A DNA stretch of 25,143 nt from a virus, in the IMG/VR virus record IMGVR_UViG_3300022752_000363, positions 1 to 25,143 of that record; one strand, 5' to 3'. Below, piece by piece: positions 14,216-20,818 of the stretch (its first letter is position 1; the number at the start of each line of letters is the position of its first letter). Below the pieces are notes generated by a model, which ran no database searches, was not told the DNA's origin, and saw only the letters and a list, made by a program, of their open reading frames with translations. Both the position numbers and the translations under genes were made by a program.

Positions 14216-14401
14216 TTATGACGCCTTTTCCGCAGTTTTGGTATCTTGGATTTCTTTTCTTCTTTCTTTAATTGCTTTTGCGATTTCAGCAAGTGCTTTT
14301 CTGGCCCTTGTTCCTGCTGCTTTGTTTCCTTTTTCCTCAAACTTTGCATTTTCTGCTAAGTATGTGTCAAAAAGATTGATTAAATTTTCATGATTTGTCA
14401 T
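14216..14401 (-). CDS. Small basic histone H1/Hc1-like protein
   Basis: A 61-aa protein. The ATG at 14401 is preferred over upstream in-frame starts because AAGGA lies 8 bases before it and because the longer form would overlap the gp5 coding end. Residues 1-20 (NLINLFDTYLAENAK) look helical. Residues 21-50 (EKGNKAAGTRARKALAEI, then KERRKE) are lysine/arginine/alanine-rich and closely resemble the core of Hc1-type histone H1-like proteins (EKGNKAA.R.R), a motif also found in small proteins of marine phages. It lies between gp5 and gp25, in the same direction. DNA binding is an inference from composition and family likeness; a structural role in the baseplate cannot be excluded. Confidence 0.8.
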   Translation of the reverse strand: MTNHENLINLFDTYLAENAKFEEKGNKAAGTRARKALAEIAKAIKERRKEIQDTKTAEKAS

Positions 14402-14414
14402 ATGATTATTCCTT

Positions 14415-16109
14415 TTATATTGATTTAACAAAACTGCCGGTGAAAGGTGATGATGGTGTATTCGCCGTTCCGTACGTTGCGCTATTAATTCTATTGAGTG
14501 CAGCTGTTGCTGTTCCTTGTGCAGCATCTGCTGCTGTTTTTGCAGCATCTGCTGCTGTTTTTGCTGTATTTGCTTGATTGTATGCAGCTTTTGCAGTATC
14601 TAGAGCTACATTTGCAGTATCCCAAATTCTCTGAACGTTTTTAATTAAACCATATAATTGATTAAAACTTACATTATATTGGTTTGTATTAAACTCTATA
14701 TCAGTGCCCGATGCAATTTTAATATTGTTTGAAGAACTATAATCACGCACTTCAATATAATGGCCGTCTTTTGATTTGAGTTTAACTCCTCTAGCACTTG
14801 TCACATCAGACATTTCAAGCGAATGTCCTAATTTTGATGTAAGTGTAACTTTTGGGGTAGCTGTTACATCAGACATTTCAAGCGAATGTCCTAATTTTGA
14901 TTTAAGTGTAACTTTTGGGGTAGCTGTTACATCAGACATTTCAAGCGAATGGCCTGAATTTGATGTAAGTGTAAGTGACTGTTTTGTTTTTACTGTTGAA
15001 GTTGGATTTGAAGATGGCGGCGGTTCATCTATAAATGTTAATTTATGACCACCACTTGAAGCTAGTTCAACATAAAAATTATCTACAGGTAATCTAGTGT
15101 CATTAAATATTAAGTAATGGCCACCAGAGCCGAAGCTTCCAGTATTTGATTTCAGGGTAATATTTCGTGTATCCTTTTTAGTTATTGTATTATATCCGTC
15201 ATTGAAAAGTAATTCTCTTTTTTCATTAGATTTTAGTGATAAAAATCTATTTGAAATTGTATTTTTGATTCTTGTTTCTTCAGTTCCAGAATTATCTGTT
15301 GTTTTTACAATTTCCGATATATTATTATCATTCATCAATAACTCATGGCCTGAATTTGATGCTAATGAAATATATTTGTTTACAGATTTACTACCAGTCC
15401 TTAGAGTATTACCATCACTCAATATTAAGCCGTGACCTGAACTTGATTTTATCCACATCATTTCAGCATTCGGTTGATCATACATTAATACAAAATGCCC
15501 TACTCTATCATAAGCTTGAGCTTCTGATCTTGATTGCCACACTATAGTATTCGCTAAATCAAATTCATTAACTCCAACTTTTCTTATGTAACTTTGCAGT
15601 AAATTAAAATTTCTAATTACTGAGCCAGTTAAAGTATCAACCTCTATCACCTTCTCCGTTACAGGATCTACTGGTTTAATATATCTTCTTGGAGGTGCTC
15701 CAAAATAATCTGCACCGGATGAAGAAACCGCCGCAGGAAAATATCCTAAAACAGCTGGTTCTTGTGCTGTTTGGCCGTCTAAGAAAAAACCAAAAACCCA
15801 ATCCCCTAAATTAGGTGCGCCATACAAATTTGGTGTATTGAGTGGATGAATAGGAATTGCCCACGGCAAATCTTTGACGGGGACACCTTTGTCTATAGGT
15901 TCATATTCTTCAATGATTTTCTTACCATCTTTATCTAATACAAAATCACCGTCAGGATATTCTTTTCTTTTTTCTCTTCGCAAAATGATTTTTTTAGGAT
16001 GATATCCAAAACATCTAACTTTCATTCTACCCAAAAAACTACTATCTTGAATGTCTTCAACGACACCAATCCACCAAACAAATCCATCTTGACCTAAAAA
16101 ATTTCTCAT
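14415..16109 (-). CDS. 5: Baseplate hub/needle protein gp5, no visible lysozyme domain
   Basis: A 564-aa protein. The N-terminal region has FVWWIGVVEDIQDSSFLGRM (10-29), followed by PWAIPIHPL and LGDWVFGFFLDGQTAQEPAV (110-130 region), the OB-fold domain of T4 gp5 that docks on gp27. The middle has about nine SxxGHxLxxxD-type repeats, as in a triple-stranded beta-helix needle. Three are near-identical 21-residue copies (bases 14803-14991). The C-terminus is an alanine-rich coiled coil with KTAADAA repeats. T4 gp5 (575 aa) has a lysozyme domain between OB fold and helix; no such catalytic segment is seen here. The ATG follows the TAA of the 78-aa gene directly and has AGAGG upstream. Confidence 0.9.
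   Translation of the reverse strand: MRNFLGQDGFVWWIGVVEDIQDSSFLGRMKVRCFGYHPKKIILRREKRKEYPDGDFVLDKDGKKIIEEYEPIDKGVPVKDLPWAIPIHPLNTPNLYGAPNLGDWVFGFFLDGQTAQEPAVLGYFPAAVSSSGADYFGAPPRRYIKPVDPVTEKVIEVDTLTGSVIRNFNLLQSYIRKVGVNEFDLANTIVWQSRSEAQAYDRVGHFVLMYDQPNAEMMWIKSSSGHGLILSDGNTLRTGSKSVNKYISLASNSGHELLMNDNNISEIVKTTDNSGTEETRIKNTISNRFLSLKSNEKRELLFNDGYNTITKKDTRNITLKSNTGSFGSGGHYLIFNDTRLPVDNFYVELASSGGHKLTFIDEPPPSSNPTSTVKTKQSLTLTSNSGHSLEMSDVTATPKVTLKSKLGHSLEMSDVTATPKVTLTSKLGHSLEMSDVTSARGVKLKSKDGHYIEVRDYSSSNNIKIASGTDIEFNTNQYNVSFNQLYGLIKNVQRIWDTANVALDTAKAAYNQANTAKTAADAAKTAADAAQGTATAALNRINSATYGTANTPSSPFTGSFVKSI
14521..14562 (-). repeat. 21-bp tandem repeat in the gp5 C-terminal coiled coil
   Basis: Two perfect 21-base copies (14521-14541 and 14542-14562) each encode a seven-residue KTAADAA-like unit. 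Seven residues is one coiled-coil heptad, so copy-number change would lengthen the coil in register. Confidence 0.9.
14803..14991 (-). repeat. 63-bp tandem repeats in the gp5 needle
   Basis: Copies start at 14803, 14866 and 14929. The first two differ at one base of 63. The third matches for about 47 bases with two differences and then diverges. Each encodes 21 residues with core GHSLEMSDVTATPKVTL. This is an in-frame duplication within the beta-helix; near-identity at DNA level suggests it is recent or kept even by recombination. Confidence 0.95.
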
Positions 16110-16346
16110 TTAACCTCTATGTTTAAAAAATTGTATTCTTCGTTCTTGCTTTGCAACCCATTCATCGGATGGTTTACCTTCGCCATCGTAATATGCTAAA
16201 GGCTTACCAGTTTTTTTTGAGACTAAAGCCCATTTGCCATTCACTTGTTTGAGCACCTCTGAAATCTCTACACCAAACACGGCTTCTTCCCATTCTTCTT
16301 GCGATAGCGGTGCAGCATTATTGATATGTTCTTTGAACCGCTTCAT
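16110..16346 (-). CDS. 78-aa basic protein between kinase and gp5
   Basis: Unknown function. The N-terminus MKRFKEHINNAAPLS is followed by an acidic helix (QEEWEEAVFG) and a compact C-terminal part with WALVSKKTGKPLAYYDGEG and a terminal EWVAKQERRIQFFKHRG that is strongly basic and aromatic. I recall similar C-terminal segments in marine T4-like phages, but without a known role. The ATG overlaps the stop of the kinase-like gene (ATGA) and its TAA directly abuts the gp5 ATG. The MKxFxExI N-terminus recalls the capsid-targeting sequence of T4 internal proteins, although the usual cleavage glutamate is absent. Virion association is possible but unproven. Confidence 0.8.
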   Translation of the reverse strand: MKRFKEHINNAAPLSQEEWEEAVFGVEISEVLKQVNGKWALVSKKTGKPLAYYDGEGKPSDEWVAKQERRIQFFKHRG

Positions 16347-17311
16347 AGTTTGTCCAATTCTGCTGTGTCTAACGATCCAGGAGGCACATTATCTTTAATC
16401 CAACTAAACAATTCTTTTTTGATTTCAACTGATGTATTCATTGGTTTACCCGGTCTCTTTAGCGTCAGATATTTAAAATCTTTCACAACTAAATCATTCT
16501 TATCATATTTGCCCATGTTCTTGTAGGGCTTGTTTGTTTTTGGATCAATCCAAACAATTGTGTTCTCACGATTGTTGAGAATGACATAAAAACCACCGTC
16601 TACATCTTTAGGCAATCCAGCCTTTGTTAAATCAAACACAGTTCTCGCTGCACCTTGATGTGTCTGAAGAAGAATGTCATCAGGCACAACTCTTGATCTT
16701 TCACTGTTATTTTTCATAGCGACTTGATAATTTGTGAGCACCCAACTGATATGTATACTCTTCGGATCGTAGCCCATTTTGATGAGTTTCGGAACGTAAG
16801 TATTCAAATCATCCATATCTTTGAACGTTGTATCAAATATAATATTAGGTAGCTTGCCTTGCTTTGCGCCGTCGAGCATCATGTCAATGAGTTTATCTTT
16901 AGCACCTGTCGCACGAACTAGCACATGAAGCGCAAAGACATGCTCAGGTGTTCTAAGATTTAAATTCTTCATGCTGTAGTCTCTGTCAATGACTTGCTTT
17001 TGGACAATCTCCATTTCATGAGGCTTAATCTTGCTGCCGTATTTGGCTAACAATTGCTTCATCGTAAACTTATTCAGATAGTCTAGTTTCTGAAACGCCA
17101 TTTTCAATTCGTCAACGTCAATGACTTTGAACTTAGGGCCTTCCATGAAATTGGAAATTGCAAAGCCCTTGCCACTGCCAGCACCGCCTGCTAAGAAAAC
17201 AACTTGGCCATACGCTTTGCCGCCGTTGTAGACAATTTGTTTTTCTTGAAGCTGATTCGCATATTCATATTCTTTTTTATGAAAAAATTCTGAAAAATTT
17301 AATTTCATCAT
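16343..17311 (-). CDS. P-loop kinase-like protein (zeta-toxin/polynucleotide-kinase-like)
   Basis: A 322-aa P-loop protein. The Walker A motif GGAGSGKG is at residues 42-49, preceded by the beta strand QVVFLA. G49 occupies the usual Ser/Thr position, as in adenylate kinases, and the following residue is Phe. Downstream are KVIDVDELK (62-70), NIIFDTTFKD (156-165, likely second acidic strand) and a strand-helix with ISWVLTNYQVAMKNNSERSR followed by VVPDDIL and H-Q-G-A, resembling the lid-arginine region of zeta-toxin and related kinases. It lies between gp27 and gp5 with a good Shine-Dalgarno (AAGGGA) and is coupled to the 78-aa gene. The substrate is unknown. It could be a virion-delivered effector, a nucleotide or nucleic-acid kinase, or an assembly ATPase. 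No antitoxin is recognisable. Confidence 0.75.
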   Translation of the reverse strand: MMKLNFSEFFHKKEYEYANQLQEKQIVYNGGKAYGQVVFLAGGAGSGKGFAISNFMEGPKFKVIDVDELKMAFQKLDYLNKFTMKQLLAKYGSKIKPHEMEIVQKQVIDRDYSMKNLNLRTPEHVFALHVLVRATGAKDKLIDMMLDGAKQGKLPNIIFDTTFKDMDDLNTYVPKLIKMGYDPKSIHISWVLTNYQVAMKNNSERSRVVPDDILLQTHQGAARTVFDLTKAGLPKDVDGGFYVILNNRENTIVWIDPKTNKPYKNMGKYDKNDLVVKDFKYLTLKRPGKPMNTSVEIKKELFSWIKDNVPPGSLDTAELDKL

Positions 17312-17320
17312 AAGATTCCC

Positions 17321-19285
17321 TTAAGTTATTTTTGCTTTTATTTTATCTATTTCAGTTTGTTTTAAGTATGTTCCTGATGTTGAATTTACACTTCTAATTT
17401 CACCAAAATTTGCTGAAATAGTGTTAATTGAACCAGGATAAAATAGCACAAAAACTTCGCCGTATGTGATGTCTGGAAATAATAATTTAATCAAATTTGC
17501 CAAAACTGAATATGAATTTCCTGAATAATTTCCGGATGCATCAATCGTAATACCCAATCCTAATATAATTTTTTCAGTTGCATCATCTGGAAAACCAGCA
17601 AGACTTCCTGTAGTCTGACGGCGAAGATTATATATTTGTCCGTTGATAACTTTGGAATATACAGCCTCTTTAGCTTTATTAATATTATCAATTAATGGAA
17701 CTTCAGCTTTTATGTTGTTTATGATGTAGTCCCTGGTAAACTGTGATGACTGACTTTGACCCTGAGATGGTGACACAATAACACCTTGCGCCGTTTGACC
17801 AGTGAGTAAATTTACTGATGAAGAACCTCTTGCAATATCAATTTCCTTTAAATAATCATTTCCTACAATCATGTGCTTTACTTCAGTTACAATATAAGAA
17901 CCTGAATAAATTTTATCATCTTCAATAGCTGAATTTTGCGGATCTAATGTTTTCTTTTGTTGAGAAGGCATTCTAAAGTTGATTATATTACCGACTCCAA
18001 TGGCATTTGAGCCACCCTCAATCGTTAATCTTAATTTAAAAATATTTTTTGATATTTGACCTATAATATTAGTTGGCAACCATTCAGACTTAGACGTTAT
18101 TTCCGAACCAAAACCTGCATACTGTGTAGCACTATAAATTAATTTTTCACCAGGTGCTTCTGGTTGTTCATACTCATTAATAAAATCATTAGTTGCCTCA
18201 ACTGGTTTATAAAGATCAAAAATAGAACCTTTGGCTATCAGAGGTTCAGCATAAAAATCGTCTGTAGCTGATTCCACACGCTTTCCATAAAGCGTAAAAA
18301 ATGATAAATAAGATTTTGTTGCGGCATCTATACTTGTTATTCGTAAATTATAAAATCCAGTCATCATAGCATCAATATGATTAAATCCTGACAATTTTAC
18401 GACTTTATTTGTTCTAAGTACGTTGTTTGTTGAGCCTTTTTCAATGTTGCCGAATATTGTTGGAGAATATACTATAGTATAGATATCATTTTTGTATGTA
18501 TTTTTACATGCATTAACGATTTTATCAATACTTCCAAAAAAATGTGAATGCACTACGGTTTTCCTTTGATTGTTTTCTATGATTTCTGATGTTGTCGGAA
18601 TCAATCGTTCATAAAAAACAAAAAATTCTGAATGAGAAAATCTTTTTGCTAGATACTCAAGTGCTTTAAATGGAGTTAACCCAGGAGATATAAAAGCTCT
18701 ATTTAACTCTGTTTTAATTTCTTGAAAAATCTTAATTCTATGTAAATCACTCATACTAACTCTTTTATAAATATCTTCAACAATTTCATTCATTTTTAAT
18801 TTTTGTATTTCTGTATTGCGTTTTTTTGTTGTTGTATCATATAATATTTTTTCTACTTGAAAATAACTTTTAAATAATCTCTTTTTCAAAGATTTTAAAT
18901 ATGATTCTGTTGTAAAATATAATGTATACACGTTTACCAATGTAATATCATCAATAGGACTTTCAGATATTCTATGAACAATAAAGTCACCTCTAGTAAT
19001 GATTGGTGTGCCTTCTGAATTTGACAAAATAATTGTAATTTTTTCGCCGCCTGAAATTAAATATTTTTCAAAAAAACCTTCTGTATCAACAATTGTTATT
19101 TGACCTTCTAAAGCAGAAGAAAATAAACTTTCATAAATTATAATTTCTTTATATCTTCCGAGCAAATCAATAGCGTCAGCATTAGGATTATTCGGTTTAA
19201 GTGCGATAGCGTCAACAAGAATTTTACCGGCAATTCTGTCTTTTATTGCACCTATGTTACCCGTATATAATATTTTATCTGACAT
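17321..19285 (-). CDS. 27: Baseplate hub protein, gp27-like, with C-terminal extension
   Basis: A 654-aa protein. Residues about 45-125 (IIIYESLFSSALEGQITIVD, GGEKITIIL) match the first hub domain of gp27-like proteins. KALEYLAKRFSHSEFFVFYE (207-226) corresponds to the segment joining the hub domains. YSGSYIVTEVKHMI...YLKEIDIARG (460-487) is the closing beta-rich part. T4 gp27 has 391 aa; here a Ser/Gln-rich linker (about 495-515) leads to a further 140 residues of unknown fold. In T4, gp27 forms the trimeric hub that binds gp5 OB domains, and gp5 is encoded two genes downstream here. It starts 3 bases after the gp53 stop. Confidence 0.85.
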   Translation of the reverse strand: MSDKILYTGNIGAIKDRIAGKILVDAIALKPNNPNADAIDLLGRYKEIIIYESLFSSALEGQITIVDTEGFFEKYLISGGEKITIILSNSEGTPIITRGDFIVHRISESPIDDITLVNVYTLYFTTESYLKSLKKRLFKSYFQVEKILYDTTTKKRNTEIQKLKMNEIVEDIYKRVSMSDLHRIKIFQEIKTELNRAFISPGLTPFKALEYLAKRFSHSEFFVFYERLIPTTSEIIENNQRKTVVHSHFFGSIDKIVNACKNTYKNDIYTIVYSPTIFGNIEKGSTNNVLRTNKVVKLSGFNHIDAMMTGFYNLRITSIDAATKSYLSFFTLYGKRVESATDDFYAEPLIAKGSIFDLYKPVEATNDFINEYEQPEAPGEKLIYSATQYAGFGSEITSKSEWLPTNIIGQISKNIFKLRLTIEGGSNAIGVGNIINFRMPSQQKKTLDPQNSAIEDDKIYSGSYIVTEVKHMIVGNDYLKEIDIARGSSSVNLLTGQTAQGVIVSPSQGQSQSSQFTRDYIINNIKAEVPLIDNINKAKEAVYSKVINGQIYNLRRQTTGSLAGFPDDATEKIILGLGITIDASGNYSGNSYSVLANLIKLLFPDITYGEVFVLFYPGSINTISANFGEIRSVNSTSGTYLKQTEIDKIKAKIT

Positions 19286-19288
19286 GAA

Positions 19289-19819
19289 TTATCCAATAAA
19301 TGGAATTTTTTGTGAATTTAGATTTGTCTGAATTAATCCTACAAGCTCTGGTCTAATGAGTTTAATTTTAGATTTGTTTATGTTCATTCTGTATTCATAT
19401 TCATATAAGGTTTCAAACGATCTGTTTGTTGGCGATAATGATGTGTATGTAGTGGCATCTATGATGTCATTGTATTGATTATAATAATATTTAATTGTTG
19501 ATTGTGCTGTTGCGAGTGATCCGTATTTTTCTATGATATAATTTATAAATGTTTCACTTCCTTTAGGCCACTCATCATATATGTTATGTATGTCGTTTGC
19601 AGCTAACACAATCCAATCTAAATCTTGATTGCCATAAAATTCATATGCAACTTGATCAGGTCTTTCGTTATCTCTTACAATATAGGGTGTATATGAAATT
19701 CCTCTATATGAGTTTATAATATTTTTTATTTTTTGAGATGAATGAATATCAACACCGACGATTGTTTCAGTGTCATTTACATTATAATTTATTGTTTGAT
19801 AAAGATTAAAATATGACAT
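19289..19819 (-). CDS. 53: Baseplate wedge subunit gp53
   Basis: A 176-aa homologue of T4 gp53 (196 aa), which clamps the wedges to each other and to the hub. The LysM-like segment YTPYIVRDNERPDQVAYEFY (about 42-61) followed by GNQDLDWIVLAAND is the recognisable family core and parallels the PRPEELANAIYG...W pattern of T4 gp53. The C-terminal half has tyrosine-rich strands (YEYEYRMNINKSKIKLI). No Shine-Dalgarno is visible ahead of the ATG, and the gene starts 19 bases after the gp48/54-like stop. Confidence 0.92.
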   Translation of the reverse strand: MSYFNLYQTINYNVNDTETIVGVDIHSSQKIKNIINSYRGISYTPYIVRDNERPDQVAYEFYGNQDLDWIVLAANDIHNIYDEWPKGSETFINYIIEKYGSLATAQSTIKYYYNQYNDIIDATTYTSLSPTNRSFETLYEYEYRMNINKSKIKLIRPELVGLIQTNLNSQKIPFIG

Positions 19820-19838: not shown

Positions 19839-20786
19839 TTATATGACGATCTTATCTTCTGTTACATCATTAGCAGTTTGAAGGACAGCTTCACGTAAAG
19901 TTAAATTTAAAGTAACTTCAGAAGGATATGGCGTAGTTCCTTCAAAAAAAACCATTTTATTTTGAGAACCGTATGTGACTGCAACATTTGTTATAACACA
20001 AAGTTTGCTTGAAAATAGAGTGGCTATATCTTTACCCTCAAAAAGTTTCAAGTCCATTGTACACATATCCGGATATCCAAATGTAAATGGTGCACCAGCT
20101 GTCGCTGTAGATAAATTAGATCCGGAAATTATTGCTGGCGCTTCACTCGTATTATCAGTTTGTCCTGAATTCACGGCATTTTGATTTGTTGTCGGTGTAA
20201 GATCACCTCGCTTAGGCGATGACGCATATTTAAATCTTTTGATGATGTCAATCATTGCTTCAGCTTCCTTTTGAGTTGTGGGTCTCATTGTAAACGCTGG
20301 CGTAAATTGTCTAAAGTTTGGTCCCTGATAAATCAATTGTTGAAATGTGTTAAACATTTGTCGTGTAAGAAATTCTACTTGTTGCTTTCCAGTGGCTCCT
20401 GCTGACGCTACATACCCCGCAACATTTCCTACACCTCCAATTAATTGTTTTGTCAGTGCTTCTACAAATGACGATTTTACAGATGATATTGCGTTCAATG
20501 CGCTTTCCGTGCCTCCTGGAGTGCCAAAAATGCCTTGAGTTTCTTGATAAGGATTTGATAATGCAGTGTCAAAAGATCCATTCATCCTTATATAAATAGT
20601 AGATTTGTCACGAGGTTCTCCCAACGAACCATAAAAATTAAATTGCATATAAGGGACAGCGAATTCCTGATCTTTTGAATATGAATGAGATGTGTCCTGC
20701 CCAGCAATGGGTACGCCAAATGCAAGTAATTTAGTATATCCAATAGGGGTACTAGTAAAATTTGGCTTAAAATTAGTTGTTGTCAT
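19839..20786 (-). CDS. Baseplate tail-tube cap/initiator (gp48/gp54-like)
   Basis: A 315-aa protein of the size of T4 gp54 (320 aa) and gp48 (364 aa), the two related rings that join hub and tail tube. The N-terminus has AVPYMQFNFYGS. The centre has FTPAFTMRPTTQKEAEAMID and IIKRFKYASSP, and the C-terminal domain has FGYPDMCTMDLKLFEGKD and SSKLCVITNVAVTYGSQNK, followed by YPSEVTLNLTLREAVLQT. This is the tube-protein fold pattern shared by gp19, gp48 and gp54. Small residues around 115-135 (GGVGNVAGYVASAGATG) form a hydrophobic glycine-rich segment. I cannot separate gp48 from gp54 by eye. First gene of the leftward block, with AAGGA 6 bases before the ATG and a CATAAATA promoter element upstream. 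Confidence 0.85.
   Translation of the reverse strand: MTTTNFKPNFTSTPIGYTKLLAFGVPIAGQDTSHSYSKDQEFAVPYMQFNFYGSLGEPRDKSTIYIRMNGSFDTALSNPYQETQGIFGTPGGTESALNAISSVKSSFVEALTKQLIGGVGNVAGYVASAGATGKQQVEFLTRQMFNTFQQLIYQGPNFRQFTPAFTMRPTTQKEAEAMIDIIKRFKYASSPKRGDLTPTTNQNAVNSGQTDNTSEAPAIISGSNLSTATAGAPFTFGYPDMCTMDLKLFEGKDIATLFSSKLCVITNVAVTYGSQNKMVFFEGTTPYPSEVTLNLTLREAVLQTANDVTEDKIVI
20591..20598 (+). promoter_or_regulatory. Candidate late promoter for the rightward block, inside the opposite gene
   Basis: An exact TATAAATA (followed by GT) on the plus strand, 218 bases before the gp4 ATG and within the minus-strand gp48/54-like coding sequence. It is the nearest consensus late element upstream of gp4. If used, the gp4 leader would be about 210 nt and antisense to the 5' part of the gp48/54-like message. 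Confidence 0.5.
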
Positions 20787-20810: not shown

Positions 20811-20818
20811 TATTTATG
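20811..20818 (-). promoter_or_regulatory. Late promoter of the leftward baseplate block
   Basis: The minus strand reads CATAAATA, a variant of the T4-type late element (NATAAATA is reported for marine T4-like phages). It lies 25 bases upstream of the gp48/54-like ATG, with the AAGGA ribosome site in between. It overlaps the gp4 start codon (20816-20818) on the other strand. An AT-rich run, TATAAAAAATA, follows it. Confidence 0.6.

Follow-up and report, generated by a model that had tools for sequence, protein, structure and literature searches.

Injected phage proteins act ahead of any phage gene expression, and to our knowledge few of them have been described beyond T4 and giant phages. The internal proteins of T4 are, as far as we know, small non-enzymes. 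The PezT and epsilon/zeta toxins are UDP-GlcNAc kinases. The starts of the T4 internal proteins IPI, IPII and IPIII are alike (MKTYQEFIAE/A and MKTFKEFT...TITE/A, with the slash at the cut). In T4, the first ten residues suffice for targeting to the prohead core, with positions 4 and 7 the most important, the prohead protease gp21 cuts after L/I-x-E, and the internal proteins are ejected (PMC9026906). Here we describe two genes, KIN and p78, which lie among T4-type baseplate genes and encode proteins with starts of this kind.

Gene order and probable late promoter of the locus

The window, that is the whole stretch of DNA analysed, is a virus record of 25,143 bases. It contains a minus-strand T4-type baseplate block in the order gp48-gp53-gp27-KIN-p78-gp5-(61 aa)-gp25-gp6 and on. 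The first gene of the operon is a gp48-like tail-tube cap gene (19839-20786, minus strand; phrog_230, 6.6e-28), followed by a gp53-like baseplate wedge gene (19289-19819, minus strand; Pfam Phage_gp53, 1.1e-10; phrog_232) and a gp27-like hub gene (17321-19285, minus strand; phrog_350, 2.6e-32). KIN (16343-17311, minus strand), which encodes a predicted zeta/PNK-type P-loop kinase of 322 aa in family phrog_5268, starts 9 nt after the end of the gp27-like gene. It overlaps p78 (16110-16346, minus strand; 78 aa) by ATGA, and the stop of p78 directly abuts, with a gap of 0, the start at 16109 of a gp5-like hub gene (14415-16109, minus strand; phrog_430, 2.2e-19; weak Pfam Gp5_OB match). The positions of both reading frames, the overlap, the abutting gp5 and the identity of the two neighbours had been claimed in an earlier note on this DNA and were all confirmed.

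The gp5-like protein has an OB domain and an alanine-rich coil at the C-terminus that matches tail-fibre families; no lysozyme domain was found in it by profile searches. Between gp5 and gp25 lies a small basic Lys/Ala-rich ORF (14216-14548; likely start MTNHENLI..., giving 61 aa). A small ORF of similar size is found there in most relatives; in a divergent contig, L235, the place is taken by a PAAR-like gene of 94 aa.

A late-promoter-like box, CATAAATA, is located about 32 nt upstream of gp48 (20811-20818, minus strand) and was taken, from its sequence, as the promoter of the KIN/p78 operon. Of 60 distinct relatives, 58 carry the motif [TC]ATAAATA ahead of gp48, against a background of 1.3%; ahead of gp25 it was seen in 67 of 96. 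The 80 nt preceding gp53, KIN and p78 lacked it in every case. Over the whole window TATAAATA occurred 4 times against 3.1 by chance, which is not above chance, and the signal lies only in its position across relatives. Since the box stands before gp48 and none lies inside the operon before KIN, KIN is most likely expressed late together with the baseplate genes, as the earlier note had proposed; the support for this is of sequence only. Standalone copies of KIN in phage S13 and in contigs L236 and L237 have a late-promoter-like box of their own, and those in Matisse, a Morganella phage and phage 65 have variants with one or two mismatches only. KIN homologues are thus found behind late-type promoters and not only as scattered early genes. 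No late-type box was found in the 100 nt upstream of the T4 ip genes.

The kinase, its partner and their distribution

KIN matched Pfam Zeta_toxin (PF06414) with 31.7 bits (cut-off 22.3; 1.3e-07) and phrog_5268, a family of no known function, over almost its full length (E=1.8e-52); NCBIfam and PADLOC gave nothing useful. The motifs read earlier are present: Walker A GGAGSGKG at residues 42-49 (17165-17188, minus strand), D65-V-D67-E, IIFDTT at residues 157-162 and the arginines R205/R207. In an alignment of 35 relatives G43, G45, S46, G47, K48, G49, D65, D67, D160, T162, R205 and R207 were invariant. The acidic and arginine residues would be equivalent to those of the zeta active site, and the P-loop (GGxGSGKG, with G after K) is adenylate-kinase-like.

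An AlphaFold2 model of KIN from the 35 relatives had a pLDDT of 81 and a pTM of 0.76. Its best solved Foldseek matches were PezT (5e-6), epsilon/zeta (1.5e-5), AvrRxo1 (2e-4) and a bacterial polynucleotide kinase (4.5e-4). Matches came from fold comparison alone, as PDB sequence searches with KIN and with a KIN profile found nothing significant. Against the bacterial polynucleotide kinase (4gp6) the TM-score was 0.65 normalised by target length, at 13% sequence identity; normalised by query length the scores were modest (0.3-0.4), so that the kinase class is clear and the substrate is not. The Pfam match above cut-off, the model and the fold matches bear out the assignment made in the earlier note, and KIN very probably belongs to the zeta/PNK-type class. 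That it is an active kinase is our expectation from the predicted fold and the conserved active-site residues.

The gene order from gp48 to gp5, including the gp27-kinase-78aa-gp5 arrangement that had been proposed for survey, is found again in dozens of contigs from uncultured phages and in practically every long-enough IMG/VR relative. Because KIN or p78 had served to select our initial loci, presence and conservation were counted in a set selected by gp6. Of the 42 non-redundant loci of this set, 22 have KIN and p78, 7 have KIN without p78 and 13 lack both, and KIN is therefore not required between gp27 and gp5. In at least nine of the loci without KIN, gp27 was joined directly to gp5. The contigs of eight such loci had no KIN elsewhere, apart from one weak match to another P-loop protein; these contigs are fragments, and absence from them is therefore weak evidence. 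In five contigs (L159, L160, L161, L162 and L165) the slot holds a 128-131-aa gene (MRKFxELREEI...) with a phrog_23027 module instead of KIN, sometimes with an additional gene of 240-250 aa.

KIN and p78 were the most conserved proteins of the block, with a median pairwise identity in the gp6-selected full loci of 76% each, compared with 66% for gp6, 60% for gp5, 52% for gp53, 48% for gp25 and 45% for gp27. KIN had a dN/dS of about 0.03-0.07 against its closest relatives (L007-L014), which together with the Pfam and phrog_5268 matches shows that it is no chance reading frame. Its dS against L007-L010 was 0.5-0.7, below nearly all flanking genes, most of which were near saturation, and this suggests cassette exchange among close relatives. 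KIN distances track those of gp6 (rho 0.80), so inheritance was mostly vertical. Recent transfer was tested as the source of the high identity and rejected, because dS was clearly below the flanks only against L007-L010 and because of the agreement with gp6; purifying selection with some cassette exchange gives the better fit.

Homologues of KIN occur in 207 annotated phage records, mostly of Straboviridae, with most of the protein covered and mostly 31-34% identity; one in an uncultured 484-kb phage had 43%. They lie near hoc, inh, uvsW and a deoxyribonucleotidase gene in Matisse and Morganella phages; in S13, phage 65 and Vibrio EniLVp02 the genes nearby are tRNA genes or a late sigma gene. 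Neither a hub-gene neighbourhood nor an accompanying p78 was found in the Straboviridae records inspected. Bacterial and archaeal assemblies gave only six matches; the four that were examined all resemble phage contigs, and one has the order gp27-KIN-gp5.

Relatives of p78 are encoded at no fewer than 174 IMG/VR loci. The protein had no match in Pfam or to a PDB fold. As KIN often occurs without it, p78 is not an obligatory antitoxin; no epsilon-type antitoxin gene was found beside KIN, whose upstream neighbour is gp27. A domain matching p78 residues 31-78 was found almost free-standing in jumbo phages, and the copy in APT65 has no leader. In Pseudomonas phage PA5oct (L020:4965-5159) a 64-aa protein with this domain, 69% identical over 52 residues, has a possible L-D-E site, and on its flanks lie three proteins with a structural annotation based on ESI-MS/MS.

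N-terminal leaders and the case for head cargo

Residues 1-23 of KIN (17243-17311, minus strand) form a capsid-targeting-like leader with a conserved L21-x-E23 and a predicted cut before K24, as judged from the alignment, the T4 leaders and the Straboviridae homologues. At the N-terminus of KIN homologues stands a short leader, in which two aromatic residues are usually spaced three apart, and L/I-x-E comes after it where the conserved kinase region starts. This was seen in the window group, in Matisse (MKSFKQFTESTLTE/A), phage 65 and S13, and in Morganella and Vibrio phages. E23 is invariant and L21 nearly so, and the leader is otherwise variable (40% identity to L010 versus 97% for the body). 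Near the N-terminus, the model is least confident at residues 19-23. A structural role might also account for the conservation of LxEK. The leader of p78, residues 1-30 (16257-16346, minus strand; MKRFKEHI...), is acidic (pI 4.7), has low model confidence and ends in I28-S-E30, with E30 invariant and located where the folded basic domain starts. Unlike a plain propeptide, it is itself conserved. The predicted mature domain, residues 31-78 (16113-16256, minus strand), has a beta-beta-beta-alpha arrangement. An (L/I)-x-E site follows the leader in 79 of 80 distinct KIN and in 61 of 64 distinct p78 proteins, and both predicted mature proteins are basic (KIN 24-322, 34 kDa, pI 9.4; p78 31-78, 5.6 kDa, pI 10.0). 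Two 150-kb relatives of the window, G001 and G002, have major capsid proteins with a candidate L-x-E/TAP site, read by eye, in the region that carries the cleavage site of T4-type capsid proteins.

The (L/I)xE motif is short, and chance would give about 2.5 leader-like starts per genome. We scored the similarity of each N-terminus to the T4 internal-protein leaders and ranked the scores within each proteome, in which the Vibrio KIN gene was mis-started. KIN ranked 1 of 276 in Klebsiella phage Matisse and 1 of 272 in Cronobacter phage S13, and p78 ranked 1 of 208 in G002 and 2 of 204 in G001. In these two, KIN itself scored only moderately (ranks 21 and 17, respectively), a real weak point of the argument. 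Other top-scoring genes of G001 and G002 lie between the portal and protease gp21 genes, as core genes 67 and 68 do in T4. Median scores were 21 for p78, 10.5 for KIN and 5 or less for baseplate families with more than one member, and no baseplate family had a leader-like N-terminus. In T4 the leader plus LxE pattern picked out exactly the three internal proteins and 61.1, where 0.6 were expected. The latter, gp61.1 (NC_000866, 18966-19130), is a 54-aa hypothetical protein whose leader MKTFKEFIKE is nearly identical to those of the internal proteins, which makes it a candidate unrecognised T4 internal protein.

From the computed gene order, late promoter, kinase fold with its conserved active site, leader similarity and LxE site, we infer, with a probability of roughly 0.6, that KIN and p78 are head-packaged, protease-processed and probably injected internal proteins of a T4-superfamily phage. 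Both would be made late from the gp48 operon, as the promoter suggests, and be brought by their leaders into the prohead core, as in T4. The prohead protease would cut after L/I-x-E to give the basic mature KIN 24-322 and p78 31-78, which would enter the next host together with the ejected DNA. In that cell KIN may act at once, before phage transcription, as an ATP-dependent kinase of the zeta/PNK type that phosphorylates a metabolite or nucleic acid of the host, with p78 as a small co-packaged basic protein.

A late kinase acting in the cytoplasm of the producing cell on nucleotides, polynucleotides or sugar-nucleotides, unpackaged and with a leader that is a plain N-terminal helix, would agree with the matches of the fold to polynucleotide and nucleotide kinases, with the deoxyribonucleotidase gene adjoining KIN in Matisse and with the only moderate leader score in the window group. 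We consider it unlikely, since divergent lineages and different contexts all retain leader and LxE, the KIN leader ranks first in two proteomes, and the same leader architecture is seen in p78, a protein without an enzyme fold.

The gp27-gp5 position, conserved in the window group and also in divergent contig L235, might point to the tail tip instead. The VgrG effectors of type VI secretion are encoded beside their spike, and KIN and p78 could likewise be effectors loaded into the hub beside the spike, or else chaperones of gp27 and gp5. This is improbable, given that the inspected Straboviridae homologues lie away from hub genes, that gp27 and gp5 are direct neighbours in many relatives, that the hub genes diverge while KIN does not, and that the leader is of head type. 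The fact that the inspected Straboviridae relatives, outside the baseplate cluster, keep leader and protease site suggests that this architecture belongs to the head and not the hub, and the position would reflect a convenient late operon with no hub function. The virion-carried or injected role put forward in the earlier note thus stands as the likeliest, whereas residence between gp27 and gp5 does not hold as the reason for it.

A third alternative is that KIN and p78 form a toxin-antitoxin-like or other mobile cassette which occupies a permissive slot in the hub operon by accident. The PezT and epsilon/zeta folds, the ATGA coupling, the slot being empty or otherwise filled in relatives and the low dS against L007-L010 might speak for it. 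It is very improbable, as there is no epsilon-like partner upstream but only p78 downstream with no known fold match, KIN repeatedly occurs without p78, and its distances follow gp6.

The principle of CTS cargo is known, with Alt as a known injected enzyme, and the cargo class described here is apparently new to the literature searched. Our searches found no published virion proteomics for any KIN carrier, no evidence on the KIN family in the KP15/KP27 and ValerieMcCarty papers, no paper joining zeta toxin with gp27 and baseplate, no relevant one joining zeta toxin with injection, and only a T4 review for capsid targeting and cyanophage. If head packaging is correct, the unannotated kinase of about 200 sequenced phages, mostly Straboviridae, and of many uncultured aquatic phages would be an injected effector, and more cargo could be listed by a simple rule of sequence. 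The analysis also corrects the tempting inference that a gene among hub genes must encode a hub protein.

More tentatively, and at slightly less than even odds, aquatic T4-superfamily phages may load sets of enzymes into their heads by modular capsid-targeting leaders, to be injected as a pre-transcriptional host-takeover kit; with leader plus LxE as the criterion, genome sequence would then suffice to recognise cargo. The proposed set consists of the zeta-like kinase with p78, DUF6267 ligase-like and cytidylyltransferase-like proteins, and phrog_2496 or phrog_23027 modules. In contig L236 KIN lies in a gene run with four leader-bearing genes: KIN, a phrog_2496 protein, DUF6267 and a cytidylyltransferase-like protein. 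This run (L236:5812-11445), whose DUF6267 protein has a ligase-like KWDG motif, is a possible cargo island. A candidate large leader-bearing cargo protein, 960 aa long and starting MKSFKESILLDE/A, is encoded in G002 (74911-77793; L190:14911-17793); it combines a cytidylyltransferase-like domain at the N-terminus with DUF5824 and a module of phrog_23027.

Comparison with known systems

Among described systems, T4 IPI, IPII and IPIII resemble KIN and p78 in the leader (aromatic, two residues, aromatic), the LxE site, the basic mature protein and late expression. KIN differs from them in its larger size, kinase fold, separate origin and location in the hub operon. T4 Alt, an injected ADP-ribosyltransferase compared here from the literature and not by sequence, is likewise an enzyme cargo of the kind that KIN would be, acting on the host straight after injection, but it belongs to an unrelated enzyme class.

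The phrog_5268 proteins of Straboviridae (e.g. CPT_Matisse236 of Matisse) are full-length homologues with leader plus LxE, annotated as hypothetical or zeta toxin; in the genomes inspected they lie outside the hub operon and have no p78. PezT and the epsilon/zeta toxins share the Pfam family and are the nearest solved fold, a likeness of sequence and fold alone; KIN differs in having no epsilon-type antitoxin and in its adenylate-kinase-like P-loop. The bacterial polynucleotide kinase 4gp6 shares with KIN the core P-loop kinase fold, a likeness of fold alone at 13% identity.
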